Assembly: GCA_934725305.1 (NCBI GenBank)
Contig: CAKVBA010000022.1
Location: 1-44,438 of the forward strand
DNA length: 44,438 bases
Direction: 5' to 3'
DNA from: an uncultured Parabacteroides sp.
GTDB lineage: Bacteria > Bacteroidota > Bacteroidia > Bacteroidales > Tannerellaceae
Numbering within the stretch: position 1 is the stretch's first letter; every line of letters begins with the position of its first letter. The position numbers and the translations under genes were made by a program. The notes under the pieces were generated by a model. The model made no database searches. It saw nothing but the letters and a program-made list of their open reading frames with translations, and was not told where the DNA came from. Shown in pieces: positions 3,170 through 44,105 of the stretch.

Positions 3170-3236
3170 CAAAACTATGTACAATTCTCTTCGTTTCTTA
3201 TACCTCAAAGTCGGATGTAATTACCGTTATTCCGTT
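3170..3236 (-). promoter_or_regulatory. Promoter and putative AraC operator of the flavoprotein operon
   Basis: On the minus strand a Bacteroides-type -7 box TAGTTTTG lies at 3170-3177. It is preceded, 18 bp upstream, by a motif at 3196-3236 that contains GGTAATTAC and TGAGGTATAAGA. The two GGTAW elements are 21 bp apart, two helical turns, as expected for tandem AraC half-sites. The motif occupies the place of the -33 box, which is not recognisable. A near-identical arrangement occurs at 12765-12831. The predicted leader to the AraC start is about 130 nt. The region 3034-3349 otherwise holds no gene. Confidence 0.6.
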
Positions 3237-6315: not shown

Positions 6316-6437
6316 GTTAATACGTTCGTTTTATTGTATTACTGAATAAAAGTAACTATAGTAAGTGAGACTACTTCTAAAATTCTTGTTAAACTATCTA
6401 AAACAGCAAAGATTCAATCCCTTTATTCTGAGTATTA

Positions 6438-6560: not shown

Positions 6561-7007
6561 ATGAAATCAGTACAGACAACAAAGACAGGTAAAAATTTTA
6601 CAGCAGTAAGTGTAGGCAAACTCAGCGAAATCAAGGATTATGTTCTTCCGTTGGGCAACATCCAGATTCCCGGAAAGGTGTTCGTTGGTCAGGCACTCGG
6701 CACGACAGGCAGTGAGCTTTCATTCCAGACTTTCGCTCCCGGTCAGGATGGCGGATTCTTGCACACTCACAAGAACCACGAGGAGCTTTACTTCATCCTC
6801 AAAGGCGAAGGTTTGTATCAGGTAGATGGCGAGAACATCCCGGTGTCGGAGGGCAGCATCATTCGTGTTTCTCCCGAAGGAAAGCGTGCCATTAAGAACA
6901 CCGGCTCAGAAGAGATGCTGATGCTCTGCGTACAATACAAGGGCAACACTTTCACGGCAGAGGATGCTACCGACGGCGTGATTCTGAATGATGAATTGAA
7001 GTGGTGA
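6561..7007 (+). CDS. Cupin domain protein
   Basis: 148 residues, single cupin. FLHTHKNHEELYFILKGEG is motif 1 with three histidines and a glutamate ready to bind a metal, and EGSIIRVSPEGKRAIKN is motif 2. There is no signal peptide, so it is cytoplasmic. The sequence resembles cupins annotated near quinone and aldehyde stress genes; no reaction can be assigned. It is transcribed divergently from the HxlR regulator, which suggests it is the regulator's primary target. The repeat element at 7021 starts 13 bp after the stop codon. Confidence 0.85.
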   Translation: MKSVQTTKTGKNFTAVSVGKLSEIKDYVLPLGNIQIPGKVFVGQALGTTGSELSFQTFAPGQDGGFLHTHKNHEELYFILKGEGLYQVDGENIPVSEGSIIRVSPEGKRAIKNTGSEEMLMLCVQYKGNTFTAEDATDGVILNDELKW

Positions 7008-7020
7008 TCGGGCTTATTAT

Positions 7021-7371
7021 CCACAAAATACAATAAGTCCATGCACAGGCAAGAGACTATTAGCCTTGCCAAAATGGAGTAGGCTGTTTTCGGAAATTGG
7101 GTGCCTACCCATTTCCAACGGAGTAGGCACCCAATCCGAACGGAGTGCCTACCCATTTTCGAAAAAGTACCTACCCATTTCTCAAACAGTCTATACCCTT
7201 TCCTTAAAAGCTCTATAAACCATTGAAAGATAGCTGAAAACCTGTTTTAAAAGGCCGTATGGAGACAGACGGACTTGTCTGCCAATCCCAGCGAGGTTAC
7301 CGGCTATTTTGGGTGGGCAAGTCTGATATTTTCAATGACTAATTATCGGTTTAAATGACAATAACCCTACG
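7021..7371 (+). repeat. Dispersed ~350-bp element, copy 1, with a 22-bp tandem array
   Basis: This intergenic element has relatives at 22033-22381 (inverted) and 43740-44105. It starts with AAAATACAATAAG and ends with ACAATAACCCT. From 7101 to 7232 it consists of six units of exactly 22 bp, each opening with a 10-bp core: GTGCCTACCC, GTAGGCACCC, GTGCCTACCC, GTACCTACCC, GTCTATACCC, CTCTATAAAC. AT-rich 12-bp tails follow each core. Core 2 is the reverse complement of core 1 over GTAGGCAC and can pair with core 1 or core 3. No coding capacity is evident. It fills the gap between convergent genes. Confidence 0.85.
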
Positions 7372-7403: not shown

Positions 7404-8189
7404 TCACTTGAAGGTTTCCATCATTTTCCTGAACTTTGAATCCGAGCATACACCGATGTCTGTTGTAACAAATTTCCCGTTTCGGAAAAGGGAAAAGATG
7501 GTAGCAGGAGTTGGTGAGCATTGTGCCTGTTCTCTCGATTCAAATTTTATGACTTTCAATGGAATGTTATTTTCCTCAGCAAGCACACGCAACATCCCGT
7601 TCACATAATAGTCTGTGTACGGACATCTGTTAGAGTAATAAACCACCAGACCTTCATTAGGCTGGATATTCTCTATCTTTGTGCAATCGTTGAAGAAGGG
7701 ATTGGCTGCCTCTTCATGTAGTTTCAAAGCCAATAAAGCGAAGCCGTTCGGGAGTTTGTCGATCACTTCAAAACCCTGTTTGAGAAACCATTTAGTGTCA
7801 CCTATAAAATGGAACTTCTTGGTTCCAACTATTGTAACGATTCCACTTTTCTGCTGTCTTTTCGCATCCTCTATCACAGACTGCAGCAGATTATATCCAT
7901 GTCCCGAACCTTTGTATTGTCCTGAAACCCAGAAGCAGTTTATCATGAGATAGTTGGGCGCAGTAACAGGAGCCCAGGCATGTTCAGCCGGAACATATTC
8001 GATAAAGACCTTGGCGCGTGCGTCCAGTCTTCTGAAAACGTAACCGTTTCCAAATTCTCTACTGAGCCATTGTTTCTTCAATTCATAGCCTTCTGAGCAT
8101 TTCTTGTCAGAAAACGCACAGCAAATATGTTCCTTACCGATATTCTCCTTGGTAAGAGTGATGTAGTTGAAAGGTTCTTTATCCATCAT
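7404..8189 (-). CDS. GNAT N-acetyltransferase with YoaP-like C-terminal domain
   Basis: 261 residues. The N-terminal 170 residues form a GNAT fold: NYLMINCFWVSGQYKGSGHG is the acetyl-CoA region, in which the usual R/QxxGxG appears as YKGSGHG, and FLKQGFEVIDKL is the last strand-helix. The C-terminal part (about 180-261) resembles the YoaP domain, a thioredoxin-like fold with a lone cysteine in YSNRCPYTDYY. The substrate is unknown. The start ATG at 8189 overlaps the stop of the 58-codon ORF upstream (TAATG), which suggests translational coupling if that ORF is real; a second in-frame ATG follows at 8186. Confidence 0.8.
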   Translation of the reverse strand: MMDKEPFNYITLTKENIGKEHICCAFSDKKCSEGYELKKQWLSREFGNGYVFRRLDARAKVFIEYVPAEHAWAPVTAPNYLMINCFWVSGQYKGSGHGYNLLQSVIEDAKRQQKSGIVTIVGTKKFHFIGDTKWFLKQGFEVIDKLPNGFALLALKLHEEAANPFFNDCTKIENIQPNEGLVVYYSNRCPYTDYYVNGMLRVLAEENNIPLKVIKFESREQAQCSPTPATIFSLFRNGKFVTTDIGVCSDSKFRKMMETFK

Positions 8190-8365
8190 TATCCAATCAA
8201 TTTTTGTATCTGTTTGTCCAAAACTTCAGGTAGCCTCTTCTTCAGAGGCTCAAATATCCTCTGATAAGACTCTTCGGGAGTTCGATATCTGTCATGTTTT
8301 GAATTGTAGGCTACTGATGCGCTCGCAGATATTCCCAAAGTTTTGTGTTTTAACTTATTATCCAT
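8189..8365 (-). CDS. Small ORF of 58 residues upstream of the GNAT gene
   Basis: An uninterrupted ORF with an ATG start, beginning MDNKLKHKTLGISAS and ending LPEVLDKQIQKLIG. Its stop codon overlaps the start of the GNAT-YoaP gene. I do not recognise it. The first 15 codons recur in the second copy of this module (near 11005-11049) with only three codon differences, but the later part diverges and is frameshifted there. The last 28 nt recur, slightly changed, at the end of the GNAT gene at 10012. It may be a real leader ORF or a mosaic of repeated debris. Confidence 0.35.
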   Translation of the reverse strand: MDNKLKHKTLGISASASVAYNSKHDRYRTPEESYQRIFEPLKKRLPEVLDKQIQKLIG

Positions 8366-8372
8366 ATATTTG
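8342..8372 (+). promoter_or_regulatory. Promoter of small membrane protein gene, copy 1
   Basis: TTTG at 8342-8345 and TATATTTG at 8365-8372 are separated by 19 bp, a near-perfect Bacteroides vegetative promoter. The expected start of transcription falls at or next to the ATG at 8380, so the mRNA would be leaderless or translation would start at the in-frame ATG at 8407. The same promoter, with a 20-bp spacer, occurs in the second copy at 11025-11056. Confidence 0.65.
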
Positions 8373-8379
8373 CGGTGTT

Positions 8380-8595
8380 ATGGAAGATATAATATTTAAT
8401 ATATATATGTTCGTCTTTGGGGTCTTCTGGCTGCTTGTTTTGATAGCCATGTTTCAAGATTCCTACAGCTTTAGCCGCCGTCGTCGCCTGACGGATAAAC
8501 AGCGGAAGGAACTCGATGAGCTTCACGACAAATGGGAAAGAGAAGAACAGGAAGCAAAGGAGGCGGAAAAGCGGAATAGGGAGAAAGAATCCTAA
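8380..8595 (+). CDS. Small single-pass membrane protein, copy 1
   Basis: 71 residues: a hydrophobic helix (IYMFVFGVFWLLVLIAMF, about 8-25), an arginine cluster (RRRR, about 33-36) and a highly charged C-terminal helix rich in Glu, Lys and Arg. The arrangement suggests an N-terminal membrane anchor with a cytoplasmic helical tail. A diverged copy lies at 11064-11276. The copies differ by one whole-codon deletion and by mostly silent or conservative changes, which supports real coding. If the promoter sets the 5' end, the ATG at 8407 may be the true start (62 residues). The family and function are unknown. Confidence 0.6.
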   Translation: MEDIIFNIYMFVFGVFWLLVLIAMFQDSYSFSRRRRLTDKQRKELDELHDKWEREEQEAKEAEKRNREKES

Positions 8596-8774
8596 TCGTT
8601 TCCGAACCTCGCCATGATACGGACGACATCCTCTTTCGTTGTCTTCTCCTCCGTCTTTTTGCCCGCTTTATCCCACTCAAACACCACGATGTCTGTCGGC
8701 TTCAACCGCTTCTTTGAGTAGGGCATCAGCGCACAGAGCGCGAGAAAGCGGGTCTGTTCCCAGCTTGTCCGGCG
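8592..8774 (-). pseudogene. Remnant of a phage-like gene, no start codon
   Basis: An open frame on the minus strand runs from the stop codon of the DUF2461 gene, reading TSWEQTRFLALCALMPYSKK and later KPTDIVVFEWDK, and ends RIMARFGND with TAG. The style recalls small phage tail-assembly proteins, but I cannot name it. There is no plausible upstream start, because it is in frame with and directly after the DUF2461 stop. Its TAG overlaps by two bases the TAA of the opposing membrane protein gene. The last 37 codons recur in the second copy (11273-11407) with three differences, two of them silent. Confidence 0.45.
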
Positions 8775-10783: not shown

Positions 10784-10969
10784 TTAGCTCTTCATCATTC
10801 TGCTCTTTCTTACTAATTCTGACGTACCTCTACGAGGCGGCATCAAAATTAGTTGTTTTGACTCACTTTTGGAGAATCTAATGACCGTTTTGGAGTTAAA
10901 ATTCCCAAAGTCTCCTTTCATCATCCATCCACCAAGTTCTCCAAACGTCCGGTCCGACCGATCCAGCAT
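10784..10969 (-). CDS. Doubtful 61-residue ORF within duplicated module, copy 2
   Basis: Reads MLDRSDRTFGELGGWMMKGD onward and ends SRMMKS. The frame stays open further upstream, without an ATG, through NFGNISERVANLQSKNF. Copy 1 has the homologous start of that frame (NFGNICERISSLQFKT) followed at once by a stop. Most base differences between the copies are compatible with coding in this frame, but no proper start exists. It may be a dispersed repeat rather than a gene. Confidence 0.2.
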   Translation of the reverse strand: MLDRSDRTFGELGGWMMKGDFGNFNSKTVIRFSKSESKQLILMPPRRGTSELVRKSRMMKS

Positions 10970-11024
10970 ATCAGTGAAGTTCTTGGATTGCAGATTGGCG
11001 ACACGCTCGCTGATATTCCCAAAG

Positions 11025-11056
11025 TTTGATATTTCAACTTATTATCCATATATTTG
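11025..11056 (+). promoter_or_regulatory. Promoter of small membrane protein gene, copy 2
   Basis: TTTG at 11025-11028 and TATATTTG at 11049-11056, 20 bp apart, fit the Bacteroides consensus. As in copy 1, the -7 box ends 7 bp before the ATG, so transcription should start at about the first codon. Conservation of both boxes, despite changes between them, supports function. Confidence 0.6.
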
Positions 11057-11063
11057 CGGTGTT

Positions 11064-11276
11064 ATGGAAGATATAATATTTTATATATACATGTTCGTCT
11101 TTTGGTCCGTCGGGCTGTTTGTCGGGGTATCCATGTTTCAGGATTCCAACAGATTCCACCGCCGTCGCCTGACCGATAAACAGCGAAAGGATCTCGAAAG
11201 GCTTCGCCACAAATGGGAAAGGGAAGAACGGGAAGAAAGGGAGGCGGAAAAGCGGAATAGAGAGAAAGAATCCTAA
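11064..11276 (+). CDS. Small single-pass membrane protein, copy 2
   Basis: 70 residues, paralogue of the gene at 8380-8595. It has the same plan: MEDIIFYIYMFVF leading a hydrophobic helix to about residue 24, an arginine cluster, then a charged helix ending AEKRNREKES. One codon is missing relative to copy 1 in the arginine run. The internal ATG at 11091 could be the start if the promoter gives a leader. Its stop codon overlaps the stop of the opposing ORF at 11273, as in copy 1. The function is unknown; the duplicated setting suggests a mobile or prophage origin. Confidence 0.6.
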   Translation: MEDIIFYIYMFVFWSVGLFVGVSMFQDSNRFHRRRLTDKQRKDLERLRHKWEREEREEREAEKRNREKES

Positions 11277-11407
11277 TCGTTTCCGAACCTCGCCATGATA
11301 CGGGCAACGTCCTCTTTCGTTGTCTTCTCCTCCGTCTTTTTGCCCGCTTTATCCCACTCAAACACCACGATGTCTGTCGGCTTCAGTCTTAAACCCAAAT
11401 TGATCAT
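11273..11407 (-). CDS. Short phage-like ORF, copy 2 (44 residues)
   Basis: Starts with an ATG at 11407 (MINLGLRLKPTDIVVFEWDK) and shares its last 37 codons with the remnant at 8592-8774, differing by two silent changes and one Val-to-Ala. The first seven codons come from unrelated sequence at the edge of the duplication, so this is probably a truncated gene that has a chance start. The stretch 11408-11615 shows no gene I can support. Confidence 0.3.
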   Translation of the reverse strand: MINLGLRLKPTDIVVFEWDKAGKKTEEKTTKEDVARIMARFGND

Positions 11408-12764: not shown

Positions 12765-12831
12765 CAAAATTAAGAGCGCTATTTATAACATCTTATACCT
12801 CATTTTCGGAAGTAGTTACCATTATTCCGTT
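12765..12831 (-). promoter_or_regulatory. Promoter and putative AraC operator of the hydrolase gene
   Basis: The minus strand has TAATTTTG (-7 box) at 12765-12772 and, 18 bp upstream, a 41-bp motif at 12791-12831 matching the one before the AraC gene. It contains TGAGGTATAAGA and GGTAACTAC, whose GGTAW cores are 21 bp apart. The 18-bp spacer itself is not conserved, so the match is not simply a recent duplication. The predicted leader is about 28 nt. Confidence 0.6.
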
Positions 12832-19199: not shown

Positions 19200-19435
19200 A
19201 GATTGCGCCCCGAAGGGGCAACCTCTCCATAGCCCAGTGGCAACGCCCTGGGTGTTATGTGATTATGAGCTATTCGCCCTGTAAGGGCAAAAGTCCTATA
19301 TTCCCATTTTACTTTTGCCCTTTCAGGGCGTTAGGTGTGTTATAACCATTTTACCCAGGGCGTTGCCCTGGTCTAAGGAAGCCATTGGGCTTTCAGCCCG
19401 CCTTTGCTCACCGTCATTGGGCTTTCAGCCCGTTT
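19200..19435. repeat. Cluster of short GC-rich palindromes (REP-like)
   Basis: At least seven hairpins lie in 230 bp between hsdS and the transposase gene: GCCCCGAAGGGGC (19207), CCCAGTGGCAACGCCCTGGG (19233), GCCCTGTAAGGGC (19276), GCCCTTTCAGGGC (19317), CCCAGGGCGTTGCCCTGG (19354), and GGGCTTTCAGCCC twice (19387 and 19419). The TTTCA loop recurs with opposite stem polarity. Their position beside a Y1 transposase gene is the pattern of REP sequences and their RAYT transposases. Confidence 0.75.
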
Positions 19436-19465
19436 TTGCAAACGTTGTTGGTTTCCCCATCCTTG

Positions 19466-20190: not shown

Positions 20191-21705
20191 TTACTCCTCC
20201 AACATCTTATACAACTCGCTATACCCTTTCAGATACTCACTTTCGCTCTTCTCCAGCCTTGCGAGTATCTCCTTGACGGGTTCATACTCTACCTTCTCGC
20301 GCTCTATCTCCTTATACTTATTGATAGAGAGATCATAGTCGTTCTGGCGGATTTCATCAACGGGCACAAAGAAACTCTGCTCCTTGCGAGAGCGAGAGTG
20401 CTCGTCGGCGAGGTGGCGAAAGCGGCTGACCACATCCGGAATATCATTATCGGCTATAGGCGAACGCTTGTCGTCGAGCGAGAAACCGTCGGCCTTCATG
20501 TCGTAGAACCATACATGGTCTGTTCCGCCACAATTGGTCTTGTTGAATACAAGAACGGCGGTTGATACGCCGGCGTAGGGCTTGAACACACCGCTGGGCA
20601 TACTGATGACGGCGCGGAGCTGCTGATTATCGACAATCTCTTTGCGGATAGCCACGTGCGCCTTGCTGGTGCCGAAGAGCACACCGTCGGGCACGATGCT
20701 GGCACAACGGCCGCCAATCTCCAACGAGCGCACAAACTGAGCCAGGAAGAGCAGCTCGGTCTTGCTGGTGTTGGCATAGGCCAGAATCTTCTTGTTTACG
20801 TTGCCCTTGTCGAGGCTACCGGCAAAAGGCGGATTGGCCATGATGAGCGAGTAGCAGCTATGATCTTCGTTCTGCTCCGAGAGCGAGTCGCGCCAAGCCA
20901 AGCAGGGAGCAGAAATATCGTGGAGCAACAAGTTCATGGCACCGATGCGCAACATGGTCTGGTCGGTATCGTAGCCATTGATCATCGAGGTCTTCATGTG
21001 GTGAGCCTCTTCGCCGACATACATTGCCGTCTCGTGGTTTTCCTTGATATATTTGACAGCCTCCACGAGGAAACCCGCCGAACCCATGGCCGGGTCGCAG
21101 ATGAAATCCTTTGGAGTAGGCTCCATCATCTCCACAATCATGCGGATGATGTGGCGCGGCGTGCGGAACTGGCCGTTGGTGCCGCTGGCAGCCATCTTGC
21201 CGAGGATATATTCATAGACATCGCCCATGGCATCGCGGTTGTTCATGTCGAGCGAATCAACGCCATCGACCACCTTGACAAGCGTGCGGGCGTTGGGGAT
21301 AAGAAAGATTGCCGACTTCATATAGCGGCTATAAGCACTCTCTTCGCCGGTGCCGATGTGTTTGATAAACTCGAACACACTCTGGCGCACCACCTTGAAC
21401 ATATTGTCGGCACCGAAATTCTTGAACACATGCCAGCGCAGGCTTTCATAAGGCACGCCGGCCTTTTCCTCGTCGCTGACGGCGTCGGGATTCACCCAAT
21501 ACTTACCATCGAGAAAGGTAGGATTCTCCACCTCGCTATCCCAGTCGCGGGCATTCTCTTCCTCTTGAAGCTGTTTGTCGTCGAGCATCTTCATAAAGAA
21601 GATATAGGTCATCTGTTCCAATACGGTGATGGGGTTGGTAATACCTGCCACAAAAAATGTGTCCCAAATCTGGTCTATCTTGTTTTTAATCTCACCTGTA
21701 ATCAT
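20191..21705 (-). CDS. hsdM: Type I restriction-modification methyltransferase subunit M
   Basis: 504 residues. The N-terminal HsdM helical domain (KIDQIWDTFFVAGITNPITV) is followed by the N6-adenine methyltransferase domain. The AdoMet-binding motif DPAMGSAGF is at 204-212, with catalytic NPPF at 291-294. QFRTPRHIIRMIVEMM is the conserved lead-in. With HsdS it forms the modification enzyme and with HsdR the full restriction complex in the cytoplasm. It is the first gene of the locus; a -7-like box (TAACTTTG at 21800-21807, minus strand) lies 95 bp upstream. Confidence 0.95.
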   Translation of the reverse strand: MITGEIKNKIDQIWDTFFVAGITNPITVLEQMTYIFFMKMLDDKQLQEEENARDWDSEVENPTFLDGKYWVNPDAVSDEEKAGVPYESLRWHVFKNFGADNMFKVVRQSVFEFIKHIGTGEESAYSRYMKSAIFLIPNARTLVKVVDGVDSLDMNNRDAMGDVYEYILGKMAASGTNGQFRTPRHIIRMIVEMMEPTPKDFICDPAMGSAGFLVEAVKYIKENHETAMYVGEEAHHMKTSMINGYDTDQTMLRIGAMNLLLHDISAPCLAWRDSLSEQNEDHSCYSLIMANPPFAGSLDKGNVNKKILAYANTSKTELLFLAQFVRSLEIGGRCASIVPDGVLFGTSKAHVAIRKEIVDNQQLRAVISMPSGVFKPYAGVSTAVLVFNKTNCGGTDHVWFYDMKADGFSLDDKRSPIADNDIPDVVSRFRHLADEHSRSRKEQSFFVPVDEIRQNDYDLSINKYKEIEREKVEYEPVKEILARLEKSESEYLKGYSELYKMLEE

Positions 21706-21974
21706 TCGTTAATCTTATTTTTTTGATGTACACTTGCGCAAGCCCCCACAACGCAACGATAAATCGCTCTCTATTTGCAAAGGCTTAGCTAACTTTCTAC
21801 AAAGTTAAGCTTTTATATTGCAGCCTTTCTGCACTATAGAAGGTTTTTTCTACATTTTTCCTTTTTTATCGGTTTTATTCCTCTTTTTGGTTGCTCAGGG
21901 CGTTAATACAAATACAACAACAATCCAATATTTATATTGATTTTCAATGTGATTACGCAACGTGGCAACGGCGC

Positions 21975-22032
21975 CCGTGGCGAATGCCATGGGCAATGGT
22001 TTTTTTAGCCCAGGGCAGCGCCCTGGGCGCCC
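21975..22032. repeat. REP-like palindromes upstream of hsdM
   Basis: CCCAGGGCAGCGCCCTGGG at 22009-22027 is a near-perfect hairpin of the same kind as CCCAGGGCGTTGCCCTGG beside the transposase gene. Just before it, GCCCGTGGCGAATGCCATGG forms a weaker hairpin. They adjoin the end of repeat element 2. In the gene-free stretch 21706-22503 these, the element, a weak promoter and one terminator are all I can see. Confidence 0.6.
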
Positions 22033-22381
22033 AGGGTTATTGTATTTTACACAGATTCATTTTTACTAATAGCGAGAGATAAAGCCATTAAGGGCAACGG
22101 GCAATTCCGCCAAGGTTGACCGGCAAATCCGCCACGCTTCAAAACCCTTGAAAAACAAGGTTATAGACTCTCTTTCAAGGGTCTATAGACTTTCCGGAAT
22201 TAGTCTATAGACTATTCGGAAAAAGTCTATAGACTTTTTTGAAAATGGGTAGGCACTCCGTTCGGATTGGGTAGGCACTCCGTTGGAAATGGGTAGGCAC
22301 CCAATTTCCGAAAATAGCCTACTCCGCTTTGACGGGATTAATAACCTCTTGTACGCTCGTTGGCTTATTGTATTTTTGTGG
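22033..22381 (-). repeat. Dispersed ~350-bp element, copy 2, inverted, with a 22-bp array
   Basis: Read on the minus strand it runs from CAAAAATACAATAAGCC (near 22380) to ACAATAACCCT (22033-22043), like copies 1 and 3. Six units of 22 bp occupy 22169-22300, with a partial seventh to 22159. The cores are GTGCCTACCC, GTGCCTACCC, GTGCCTACCC and then GTCTATAGAC three times, the latter a perfect palindrome. Unit 2 is in direct orientation here, whereas copies 1 and 3 have it inverted (GTAGGCACCC type). It shows no coding potential. Confidence 0.85.
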
Positions 22382-22503: not shown

Positions 22504-23457
22504 TCAGAACCGGCTTACGGCTCCACCACCACCGGAGCTGCCACCGCCCCAAGAGCCACCACCACCGGAGCTGCCGCCGCCCCAAGAGCCGCCACCGCCA
22601 CTATCGCTATTAGACAAACGACTTAGCGTCTGACGTTCGCGGCACGTATAGCCACACTTCTTACAACGATAGATTGTTTCGGCCAAACCTTCCGTGCGAT
22701 ACGTAGGTTGCTTCAACGTATGTTTTTTCTGATAAGATAATGTCTTGTTGTGACACTGAGGACAGAGACGAGGACGTCTTTTCATATAGCTCTTCAGACC
22801 AATCACTCCCATAAAAAGAGAGCCAAAGATCAAGAGGCCCCACATGTCATCATCATCATCATCAGACGCTTGATTTCGGTAGGCTATTTGCTCATCTTCG
22901 CTTGACATCAGATATTGGCTAACCGCAGAGACGCCTTTTTGCATGCCGGTGCTATAATCGCCTTCCTTCATGTCGGGAATCATATGATCTTGTTGCATGC
23001 GGTAGCAGGTCGCATCCGGAAGAACTCCTTCTAAGCCATAGCCGGTTTCAAACACAACGGAACGTTGGCTGGGATCGGTCACCAGCAAGATTAGCAAACC
23101 ATTGTCTTTTCCTTTCTTGCCCAATCCCCAATGCTTGAACAATTCGTTTGCAAAATCGCGCGGATCATTTTCACCAATACTCTTTACCGCCACTACCGCC
23201 ACTTCGATGCCAAGGCTATCTTCCAACTGATGAAGTGTCTGGTTGATGCTATGCACAGCATCCGGGCTAAGAATCGTATCGGGATTGCTGACATGACTGA
23301 AACGATCGGTCAGGCGAGTGTTCGGAATGGTCTTTACCGTGTAGTCTATAGAGGCATGAGCCAGTTGTGGAAGTAGAAGAGATAAGACAACAAAGGCTAT
23401 AAACAGGCAGCTATGCCACCTGCTTACAGCCTTTTTCGTATAAAGAGAATGAATCAT
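22504..23457 (-). CDS. TPM domain protein with zinc-ribbon-like segment and glycine-rich tail
   Basis: 317 residues. A signal/anchor segment (about 12-36) precedes a TPM domain (about 37-190, with SLGIEVAVVAV and GYGLEGVLPDAT). A second membrane segment follows at about 206-222. Next is a cytoplasmic segment with two CxxC pairs (LCPQCHNK and YRCKKCGY, about 231-270) that could bind zinc. The C-terminus is two copies of an 11-residue Gly/Ser/Trp unit (GGGGSWGGGSS). TPM proteins pair with LemA in many bacteria; LemA is encoded 11 bp upstream. The function is thought to be envelope-related, and the exact role is unknown. Confidence 0.85.
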   Translation of the reverse strand: MIHSLYTKKAVSRWHSCLFIAFVVLSLLLPQLAHASIDYTVKTIPNTRLTDRFSHVSNPDTILSPDAVHSINQTLHQLEDSLGIEVAVVAVKSIGENDPRDFANELFKHWGLGKKGKDNGLLILLVTDPSQRSVVFETGYGLEGVLPDATCYRMQQDHMIPDMKEGDYSTGMQKGVSAVSQYLMSSEDEQIAYRNQASDDDDDDMWGLLIFGSLFMGVIGLKSYMKRRPRLCPQCHNKTLSYQKKHTLKQPTYRTEGLAETIYRCKKCGYTCRERQTLSRLSNSDSGGGGSWGGGSSGGGGSWGGGSSGGGGAVSRF

Positions 23458-42317: not shown

Positions 42318-43658
42318 ATGCCATCTATCCTAATAATAGAAGATGATATTACTTTCTCATTGATGCTAACTACATGGTTGAGCAAGAAGGGGTTCGATGT
42401 TAAAACCTCGGCATCGGCTTCTGCCGCTCGTGGCTATATTGATGAGGGGAATTTTGATCTGATCATCTCAGATTTGAGATTGCCGGATGGAGATGGCATG
42501 GATTTACTTAAGTGGCTCAAGGATAAATATCCGATGCTACCCTTGATCATGATGACCAGCTATGCCGATATACAGACAGCTGTGCAGGCCATTAAGTCGG
42601 GTGCCGCAGATTATATCTCAAAACCCCTGAACCCTGAAGAGCTGTTGAGCAAAATTAAGGAAACGCTGAGAAACGAAACAAAAAGCTCCTTCTCACCACC
42701 CGAAACCAACGCTCCCAAAGTATCCATGTCGGCCGTCAATCTTTATATCGAGGGGCAGAGTCATGCCGCCCGTCAGATGTATGACCATGTACGCCTGGTT
42801 GCCCCCACAGACATGTCGGTTTTGGTGACAGGTGCCAGTGGAACCGGAAAAGAATATATAGCCCGTCGTATCCACGAGCAGAGTAGTCGTAAGAAAGAGC
42901 CCTTTATAGCCGTTGATTGTGGCTCTATCCCCAAAGACTTGGCCGCATCTGAATTTTTTGGCCATGTGAAGGGGTCGTTTACAGGAGCCATCGACAATAA
43001 AATAGGGGCTTTCGTGGCTGCCCAAGGAGGAACCATCTTCTTGGATGAAATTGGTAACCTCACGTACGAGGTGCAGGTGCAGTTGTTGCGTGCGCTACAA
43101 GAGCGCAAAGTGAAGCCGATTGGCAGCAATCAAGAGATAGCCATTAATGTGCGACTGATCTCGGCAACCAACGAAAATCTGCGTGTTGCCATTGAGAAGG
43201 GCGATTTTAGAGAAGACCTTTATCACCGTATCAATGAATTCTCTATTCGCATTCCCGACCTGAAAGAGCGTAAAGAAGATCTGCTCTTGTTTGCCAACCA
43301 CTTCCTGGATTTGGCCAATAGTGAATTGAATAAAGACATTATCGGCTTCGATCCCGAAACAATCCATCTGTTCCAGTCCTATTCATGGCCCGGCAATCTG
43401 CGCCAGATGAATAATGTAGTGAAGTATGCCACGCTATTAGCCACAGGTCGTTACATTACTCGCAAGGAGTTGCCCGAAGAGCTTACCGAGTCGTTCCGCC
43501 CCGCATCCGGCATTCAGCTGAAGAACGAAGACCACGAACGCGAACTGATCTTGAAGGCTCTGTCAGAATCGGGAAACAACAAGACGAAGGCTTCTCAGAT
43601 GTTGGGTATTGATAGAAAGACACTTTATAATAAAATGAAGCTCTATCAGCTGGATTAG
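42318..43658 (+). CDS. Sigma-54-dependent response regulator (NtrC family)
   Basis: 446 residues. The receiver domain (about 1-120) has acidic residues EDD at 8-10 and phosphorylated Asp52 in ISDLRLPDGDG. The AAA+ domain has Walker A GASGTGKE at 172-179, the sigma-54 contact loop as GSFTGA (usual GAFTGA) at 219-224, and DEIG at 244-247. A Fis-type helix-turn-helix closes it (NNKTKASQMLGIDRKTLYNK). It activates RpoN promoters once phosphorylated, presumably by the hybrid kinase upstream. Architecture matches RteB-like regulators. A sigma-54 promoter candidate lies 310 bp upstream. Confidence 0.93.
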   Translation: MPSILIIEDDITFSLMLTTWLSKKGFDVKTSASASAARGYIDEGNFDLIISDLRLPDGDGMDLLKWLKDKYPMLPLIMMTSYADIQTAVQAIKSGAADYISKPLNPEELLSKIKETLRNETKSSFSPPETNAPKVSMSAVNLYIEGQSHAARQMYDHVRLVAPTDMSVLVTGASGTGKEYIARRIHEQSSRKKEPFIAVDCGSIPKDLAASEFFGHVKGSFTGAIDNKIGAFVAAQGGTIFLDEIGNLTYEVQVQLLRALQERKVKPIGSNQEIAINVRLISATNENLRVAIEKGDFREDLYHRINEFSIRIPDLKERKEDLLLFANHFLDLANSELNKDIIGFDPETIHLFQSYSWPGNLRQMNNVVKYATLLATGRYITRKELPEELTESFRPASGIQLKNEDHERELILKALSESGNNKTKASQMLGIDRKTLYNKMKLYQLD

Positions 43659-43739: not shown

Positions 43740-44105
43740 AAAATACAATAACCTAATAAGCGTTCAAGAGATTATTAACCCAATCAGAATGGATTAATCC
43801 ATTTGTGGAAATTGGGTGCCTACTCAATTCAAACGGAGTAGGCGCCCAATCCGAACGGAGTCCCTACCCATTTTCAAAAAAGTCCCTACCCATTTTCAAA
43901 AAAGTCCCTACCCATTTTTCAAAAACTCTATACCCTTTTCCCAAAAACTCTATAGATCCTTGAAAGACAGCCAAAATACTCTTTTAGAGGGTATTTATGC
44001 TGAGGCGGATTTGTCTGTTGGTTTCAATAGGATCTTCCGTTATTTCAGGCAGGCTTGTTAGCTGTTTTCAGTAAGTGACAACCATGTTAAAATTACAATA
44101 ACACT
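43740..44105 (+). repeat. Dispersed ~365-bp element, copy 3, with a 22-bp array
   Basis: It starts with AAAATACAATAACC and ends near TTACAATAACACT, like copies 1 and 2. Seven units of 22 bp run from 43816 to 43969. The cores are GTGCCTACTC, GTAGGCGCCC, GTCCCTACCC three times, CTCTATACCC and CTCTATAGAT. Units 3 and 4 are identical over all 22 bp and unit 5 is nearly so, showing recent homogenisation. The T-to-C change in core 2 keeps pairing with core 1 through a G-T wobble. It lies just after the response regulator gene. Confidence 0.85.

Follow-up and report, generated by a model that had tools for sequence, protein, structure and literature searches.

Dispersed intergenic elements with a 22-bp tandem lattice in a Parabacteroides-like genome and their relatives in Tannerellaceae

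The window, i.e. the whole stretch of DNA analyzed here (44,438 nucleotides), contains three intergenic elements with common ends and tandem 22-bp units, designated E1, E2 and E3, and all three are present as described in a first-pass annotation of this DNA. The annotation had implied a Bacteroides host, which was not borne out, since the closest relatives of the gene adjoining E3 (42318-43658) were found in Parabacteroides and other Tannerellaceae (at most 75% identity); the host is Parabacteroides-like (Tannerellaceae). The elements and their surroundings are as follows.

6561-7007, + strand: cupin gene beside E1
7021-7371, + strand: E1, between the cupin and GNAT/YoaP genes, at the 3' end of each
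7025-7036, + strand: left terminal direct repeat of E1, AAAATACAATAA
7079-7232, + strand: array of E1, 7 recognizable 22-bp units
7357-7368, + strand: right terminal repeat of E1, GACAATAACCCT
7404-8189, - strand: GNAT/YoaP gene beside E1
20191-21705, - strand: HsdM-like gene, downstream of E2
22033-22381, - strand (inverted): E2
22037-22046, - strand: right terminal direct repeat of E2, AATACAATAA
22147-22322, - strand: array of E2, 8 units of 22 bp, three of them with the palindromic core GTCTATAGAC
22365-22374, - strand: left terminal direct repeat of E2, AATACAATAA
22445-22473, - strand: intrinsic-terminator-like hairpin between the TPM-domain gene and E2
22504-23457, - strand: TPM-domain gene, upstream of E2
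42318-43658, + strand: sigma-54 response regulator gene beside E3
43740-44105, + strand: E3, downstream of the sigma-54 response regulator gene
43742-43751, + strand: left terminal repeat of E3, AATACAATAA
43794-43969, + strand: array of E3, 8 recognizable 22-bp units, the alignment showing a whole extra unit relative to E1 and E2
44092-44101, + strand: right terminal repeat of E3, ATTACAATAA

In a three-way alignment the ends, the leader and the array are common to all three elements, and the only gap within the array measures exactly 22 columns, corresponding to the gain or loss of one whole unit that is present in E3. The end motif AATACAATAA is a direct repeat that is exact at four of the six ends, carries one mismatch at the right end of E3 and is replaced by GACAATAA at the right end of E1; the motif is also matched exactly at 6331-6340, outside the elements. 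The direct match of approximately AAATACAATAA between the ends of E1-E3 was better than in shuffled sequences (p = 0.026, 0.008 and 0.026), and no terminal inverted repeats were detected, the inverted match of the ends being no better than in shuffles (p = 0.13, 0.31 and 0.81).

The constant 22-bp lattice with varying cores is supported by the alignment, by autocorrelation peaks at 22, 44 and 66 in each of the elements and by the tandem repeat program TRF, which calls period 22 at all three. When the bases of the window were permuted inside 100-bp blocks, three of 20 shuffles contained an array with a period of at least 15, and one of these had a period of 20-24. While the unit length agrees with the first-pass annotation, the number of units, previously given as six to seven, had to be corrected to seven in E1 and eight each in E2 and E3, counts that include a degenerate first unit; a further step of the lattice, present in E1 (7233-7254) and E3 (43970-43991), was left uncounted because of its degeneracy. 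The core GTnnnTAnnC, which had been ascribed to every unit, occurs in its strict form in four units of E1, seven of E2 and four of E3, and the remaining units are degenerate or have their inner bases inverted with unchanged spacing. In unit 2 of both E1 (GTAGGCACCC) and E3 (GTAGGCGCCC) the inner bases of GTGCCTACCC, which is forward in E2, are inverted in place (GCCT to AGGC). Dyad symmetry within single units of E1-E3 was not significant (p = 0.97, 0.23 and 0.91), with the exception of the three GTCTATAGAC units of E2 (p = 0.003).

Several other repeats were observed in the window. A stretch of about 400 bp occurs twice (8299-8704 and 10983-11385; two blocks with 82% and 92% identity), each copy holding a small ORF (8167-8595 and 10869-11276, respectively) and its flank, and represents a local duplication. 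GC-rich palindrome clusters at 19240-19440 and 21970-22037 (CATTGGGCTTTCAGCCCG; CCCTGGGCGCCCAGGG), one of which abuts the right end of E2, are perhaps another dispersed palindromic repeat, and an intergenic 41-bp stretch (TCTTATACCTCA..GTTATTCCGTT) is found at 3196-3236 and 12791-12831 with 85% identity.

Relatives of the elements were sought in 123 Tannerellaceae genomes. BLAST with E3 (best five or fewer candidates per genome), as well as BLAST with E2 against 393 Bacteroidales genomes (best two or fewer candidates per genome), returned only fragments of 33-58 bp, and the sole hit of E2 in the latter set, located inside a reading frame, was rejected. The exact pattern of the E-type elements had no match in the GTDB contig collection, two exact-pattern searches of viral contigs gave 0 and 0 matches, and blastn found neither E3 in plasmids nor E1 in phages. 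A pattern with the 22-bp spacing built in matched two of the 123 Tannerellaceae genomes and its reversed control none. An exact search that left the spacing free, CCTACCC followed by a gap of 6 to 26 and a second CCTACCC (spacings of 13-33), yielded 39 matches in the 123 genomes, of which 10 were spaced by 22 bp and six by 23 bp (four of these in one genome), whereas spacings of 13, 27 and 32 bp were found three times each and any other spacing at most twice. The excess at 22 bp over the 21 possible spacings was significant (binomial p = 1e-5) and remained so (p = 0.001) after removal of two doubtful loci and of one member of an orthologous pair. Since the reversed-pattern control gave more matches in total than the pattern itself (its spacings were not listed), only the spacing, and not the number of matches, supports the family.

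Sequences of 601 bp were examined for 13 of the places spaced by 22 or 23 bp, namely the loci of four of the six 23-bp matches and nine of the ten 22-bp matches, the one left out (G011) being an apparent orthologue of a place in the Parabacteroides metagenome-assembled genome G002. Seven of the nine 22-bp places are short arrays of NT[G/A]CCTACCC with a 12-nt spacer, while the other two lie inside a long reading frame (L231) and inside another repeat (L227). Three of the seven arrays are outside every ORF of at least 60 aa, and four (L228, L232, L233 and L235) overlap short frames or frame ends; a flipped core is found one lattice step further in L228 and L233. CCTACCC is common to these loci by design of the search, but the 22-bp spacing was not imposed, nor was the T at core position 2, which is not part of the pattern and was present in 15 of the 18 cores of the nine 22-bp places. 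Further lattice loci came from other searches (L037, L039, L040 and L224).

Additional places were obtained with R1, a sequence-only model (core, 12 bp, core) built from 12 sequences, whose built-in 12-bp gap favors matches of 22 bp and whose E-values are rough. At E<=0.05 per genome R1 found 28 places in 13 of the 123 Tannerellaceae genomes, with about six false ones expected, and at E<=0.01 it found 18 places in eight genomes, with about one false place expected. The 28 places comprised six of the loci used for building, three previously known loci and 19 new ones, including eight in G049 and four in G066, which brings the totals to ten and five places in these genomes, respectively; the building locus G002:C86 and the known locus L230 were missed. 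Only E1-E3 were matched in the window, nothing was found at E<=0.5 in 1.25 Mb of other DNA, and among the 393 Bacteroidales genomes, where fewer candidates were scored per genome than in the family scan, the two matches at E<=0.01 were both members of the Tannerellaceae set. When 16 further places were examined at 501 bp, 12 had no ORF of at least 70 aa over the array and most showed two or three cores exactly 22 bp apart; loci of G066, G054 and G058 hold three units with this spacing. The spacing is not perfectly rigid, since L255 contains a step of 21 and a pair in L245 is separated by 43. By eye, three loci of G066 (L249-L251) have a common leader of more than 100 bp and a common tail around three units, and a fourth (L248) has the array and a short tail in common with them, so that the G066 copies are organized like E1-E3, with leaders and tails of another sequence. 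Covariation within the core family was weakly positive (p = 0.03-0.06) at four of six arm positions, with related units counted as independent. The dispersed family proposed in the first-pass annotation and the existence of relatives in other genomes are supported, and among the related genomes searched we found neither a restriction to three copies nor freely varying periods. Dispersed elements with a 22-bp lattice therefore recur in Tannerellaceae, although their ends differ.

The family is real and dispersed, and its lattice would probably serve as a protein-binding platform. E1-E3 are three copies of a non-coding modular element in which a leader and a tail enclose an array of 10-bp sites arranged on a 22-bp lattice. 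We tentatively favor, at slightly less than even odds, the reading that the lattice forms a row of recognition sites for one conserved, putative DNA-binding protein and that the element spreads in trans. The set to which E1-E3 belong, found in several Tannerellaceae genomes, has the site NT[G/A]CCTACCC and its 22-bp spacing in common, whereas the leader, the tail and the 12-bp spacers differ from species to species, and it is because core and spacing persist while the 12-nt spacers and flanks drift that a protein is suggested as the reader of the array. The candidate protein would contact neighboring sites about two helical turns apart, the element would travel as a passenger of some recombinase or transposase, and an effect on neighboring genes, as a nucleoprotein boundary behind gene ends, would be secondary. 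No binding protein or mobilizing enzyme for the lattice was identified in this analysis. A protein may bind the cores on one face of the DNA, as the first-pass annotation suggested, but the helical-face argument is weaker than it appears: 22 bp is near two turns, whereas sister families of the wider class described below have periods of 23 or 24 bp, which fit two turns poorly. Arrays of unrelated sequence with periods of 21, 23 or 41-43 bp also occur in these bacteria, which a single protein would not explain.

This wider class was surveyed with TRF. The DNA comprised 400 kb from each of G002, P. faecalis and B. oleiciplenus, parts of genomes from 20 Tannerellaceae and 20 Bacteroidales, and controls; each sequence-independent family that had a period of at least 12 and lay outside reading frames of more than 600 bp was counted once. 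The census drops arrays in long frames (23 in the Tannerellaceae set) as well as L010, L030, L031 and L034; its sample is dominated by G002 and P. faecalis, its contigs are not random, and a simple ORF rule stands in for genes. Tannerellaceae, including the window, had 68 non-coding array families in 1.26 Mb, of which 55 had periods of 20-24 bp (37) or 40-45 bp (18), one a period of 61-67 bp, and the others periods of 25-39 bp (two), 46-60 bp (none), 12-19 bp (nine) and 85 bp (one). In Bacteroidaceae 14 of 29 families had periods of 20-24 bp (ten of them exactly 22) and one of 40-45 bp, and in other Bacteroidales nine of 20 families fell at 20-24 bp. Outside Bacteroidales two of 14 families fell at 20-24 bp. 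Tannerellaceae (p = 2e-6) and Bacteroidaceae (p = 0.02) differed from this outside set, other Bacteroidales not clearly (p = 0.08). The outside set is small, as 250 kb of E. coli K-12 yielded only three non-coding arrays, two with periods of 20-24 bp. A single shuffle of the 400-kb G002 sample contained two arrays in total, none at 20-24 or 40-45 bp. In a test using all units, palindromic units (p<=0.05) were found in 17 of 45 families at 20-24 bp, eight of 19 at 40-45 bp and three of 23 at other periods, and a consensus-only test gave seven of 57 families at p<=0.05. Covariation inside the arrays was not detected (207 observed versus 202.6 expected), and an asymmetry between G.T and A.C, used as a test for RNA, was skewed with repeated units counted as independent, while a second test had too few mismatches.

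Species-private families and unit turnover were seen in this class. In P. faecalis, elements with the ends ATTCTTTAG and CTAAAGAAT gave 46 end sites versus three for the reversed control; 42 of these form 21 pairs of 94 bp (18 pairs), 52, 73 or 115 bp, lengths that all equal 31+21n, and the other four adjoin array hits. The draft genome yielded no long copy carrying such ends, the 21-bp pattern matched one of 38 genus genomes, namely P. faecalis itself, and covariation within the family was absent (281 versus 278.5). The palindromic 31+21n bp elements (L061-L080 and L197-L223) number about two dozen in the draft genome. G002 has a dispersed 21-bp family (L041-L060; TATCTTTAGGCTAAAGATA) with TRF lengths of 51-82 bp and, by eye, inverted flanks, in addition to 23-bp and 41/42-bp families with unrelated palindromes, and in one of its arrays (L043:4996-5195) the sequence drifts, by eye, with the 23 bp kept. 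Array-bearing insertions differ, by eye, at one orthologous place between B. timonensis and B. cellulosilyticus. An orthologous 22-bp array (GGAAACGACAGTTTCC; L012:18963-19067 and L015:19034-19172) lies before one and the same gene in two Bacteroides records and differs between them in its number of units, and another 22-bp array (AACAGACCATCTGTTT..; L013:10374-10453 and L015:10373-10455) lies inside a stretch matching an NtrC-type regulator gene, near the end of the receiver domain.

From these periods it is conceivable, although we would not lean toward it, that in Tannerellaceae, and less so in other Bacteroidales, a general process imposes a quantum of about 21-23 bp, or multiples of it, on intergenic arrays of any sequence, with private-sequence families being continually renewed in each species and the GTNCCTACCC lattice representing one family that kept its core across species. 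Such a process may be due to a structural DNA-binding protein or to the duplication machinery. A general 21-23 bp rule is possible and would be a larger claim than the element family itself; among the titles and abstract openings returned by literature searches, which covered few subscription papers, none stated such a rule for Bacteroidales.

The strongest alternative to a protein-binding platform is a purely mutational minisatellite, in which duplication proceeds in steps of about 21-23 bp without a binding protein and the elements are passive. The concentration of Tannerellaceae periods at 20-24 and 40-45 bp, with two families at 25-39 and none at 46-60 bp, the privacy of families such as that of P. 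faecalis and the 31+21n lengths of its paired elements are all consistent with it, yet it does not account for NT[G/A]CCTACCC on a 22-bp lattice at unrelated loci of several species, and we consider it rather unlikely. On this reading, units of 41-43 bp would be two diverged units copied together and errors templated by hairpins would flip cores in place, as in the GCCT to AGGC inversion of unit 2. We know of no duplication enzyme with a step of about 21-23 bp.

Alternatively, the elements could act as RNA, with oppositely oriented units pairing into long hairpins at the 3' ends of mRNAs and affecting stability, processing or termination. In the window E1-E3 each follow the 3' end of a same-strand gene, two loci of G049 (L242 and L245) lie directly behind same-strand tRNA genes, and the predicted fold energies are 5.0-5.5 sd below dinucleotide shuffles for both strands of E1 and for the element strand of E2 and E3. 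However, the two strands of E1 fold equally well, and since both fold better than shuffles, an RNA role is not distinguishable from a DNA hairpin role. The covariation term was unfavorable in the three sequences, though nine of 84 pairs changed on both sides, and Rfam at its gathering threshold gave no match in the window and five scanned loci. The placement behind same-strand gene ends, which the first-pass annotation had suggested examining, holds for all three elements of the window, but elsewhere orientation to genes is mixed, and L037 and L224 oppose their neighboring genes. Upstream terminators were found at seven of 31 loci versus eight of 96 control positions, a weak link (p = 0.05), part of the seven terminator-like hairpins themselves containing lattice-like units, and with this p value and the mixed orientation both terminator association and gene orientation were dropped as a general rule. 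Altogether, an RNA element is an unlikely explanation. Still less credible is a remnant transposon end, i.e. a non-autonomous copy whose 22-bp sites bind a transposase needing several tandem sites, as TnsB of Tn7 and MuA of Mu do: the tandem sites, the dispersed modular build and the direct end repeats would suit it, but E1-E3 have no terminal inverted repeats, their arrays are internal rather than terminal, no autonomous copy was seen among the sequences searched and, by analogy, no long copy was found in the P. faecalis draft genome, where 42 of the 46 end sites are paired at no more than 115 bp.

If a protein reads the lattice, as the platform reading proposes, the elements would constitute a dispersed multi-site recognition system in Bacteroidota whose exact spacing is biochemically testable. 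If the period instead stems from DNA duplication, these genomes would have a preferred mutational step, which, if true, would explain why the repeats of P. gingivalis (22, 23 and 41 nt) and Tannerellaceae (21-23 and 41-43 bp) have similar lengths even where, as in many cases, their sequences are unrelated. On both views, scattered species-specific minisatellites are joined into one testable class.

Among known systems, plasmid iterons (e.g., the 22-bp iterons of R6K) are likewise tandem sites of about two helical turns, but E1-E3 are dispersed over several loci. All three copies adjoin ordinary genes, related genomes have as many as 10 places each and the ten window proteins scanned include no replication gene; an assignment to iterons was rejected. 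CRISPR arrays, with repeats of 24-48 bp and unique spacers, were rejected as well, the units of E1-E3 being contiguous and 22 bp long. The GTAG/CGTC REP repeats associated with RAYT are described as small intergenic palindromes that can be clustered (PMC3733652), whereas E1-E3 are not single palindromes of 20-40 bp. The Y1 transposase domain (Y1_Tnp, PF01797) was found in six of ten genomes tested but not in G002, which carries the lattice, and a RAYT is thus not required as mobilizer. MITE464/PgRS of P. gingivalis is a MITE-like element with 41-nt tandem repeats and repetitive flanks according to Klein et al. (2015; PMC4596501), who also mention 41- and 22-nt repeats in this species; 41 nt corresponds in length to the second Tannerellaceae period. 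The nearest described element is BrickBuilt, a MITE of Porphyromonas gingivalis that in the same source consists of a leader, an array of 23-nt units and a tail. Its units are imperfect and follow one another without spacers, it grows and shrinks by whole units, and it is predicted to fold into long stem-loops. Strain ATCC 33277 has 19 copies, and the element is marked by IS5-like terminal inverted repeats of 12 bp and, in some copies, target site duplications (PMC4596501). At the place that corresponds to E3 in the 11 nearest relatives examined, after the orthologue of its upstream gene, the sequence is a different one. Its overall design is shared by E1-E3 and the three G066 loci, where leader, array and tail likewise form one dispersed intergenic module, and the earlier statement that no named element has this structure was therefore too strong. 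Compared by description rather than by unit sequence, E1-E3 differ from BrickBuilt in that their units measure 22 bp instead of 23 nt, their terminal repeats are direct and their core occurs in several species, and they were not filed as BrickBuilt because they lack terminal inverted repeats. The E1-E3 family is a variant of minisatellite-bearing MITE-like elements.
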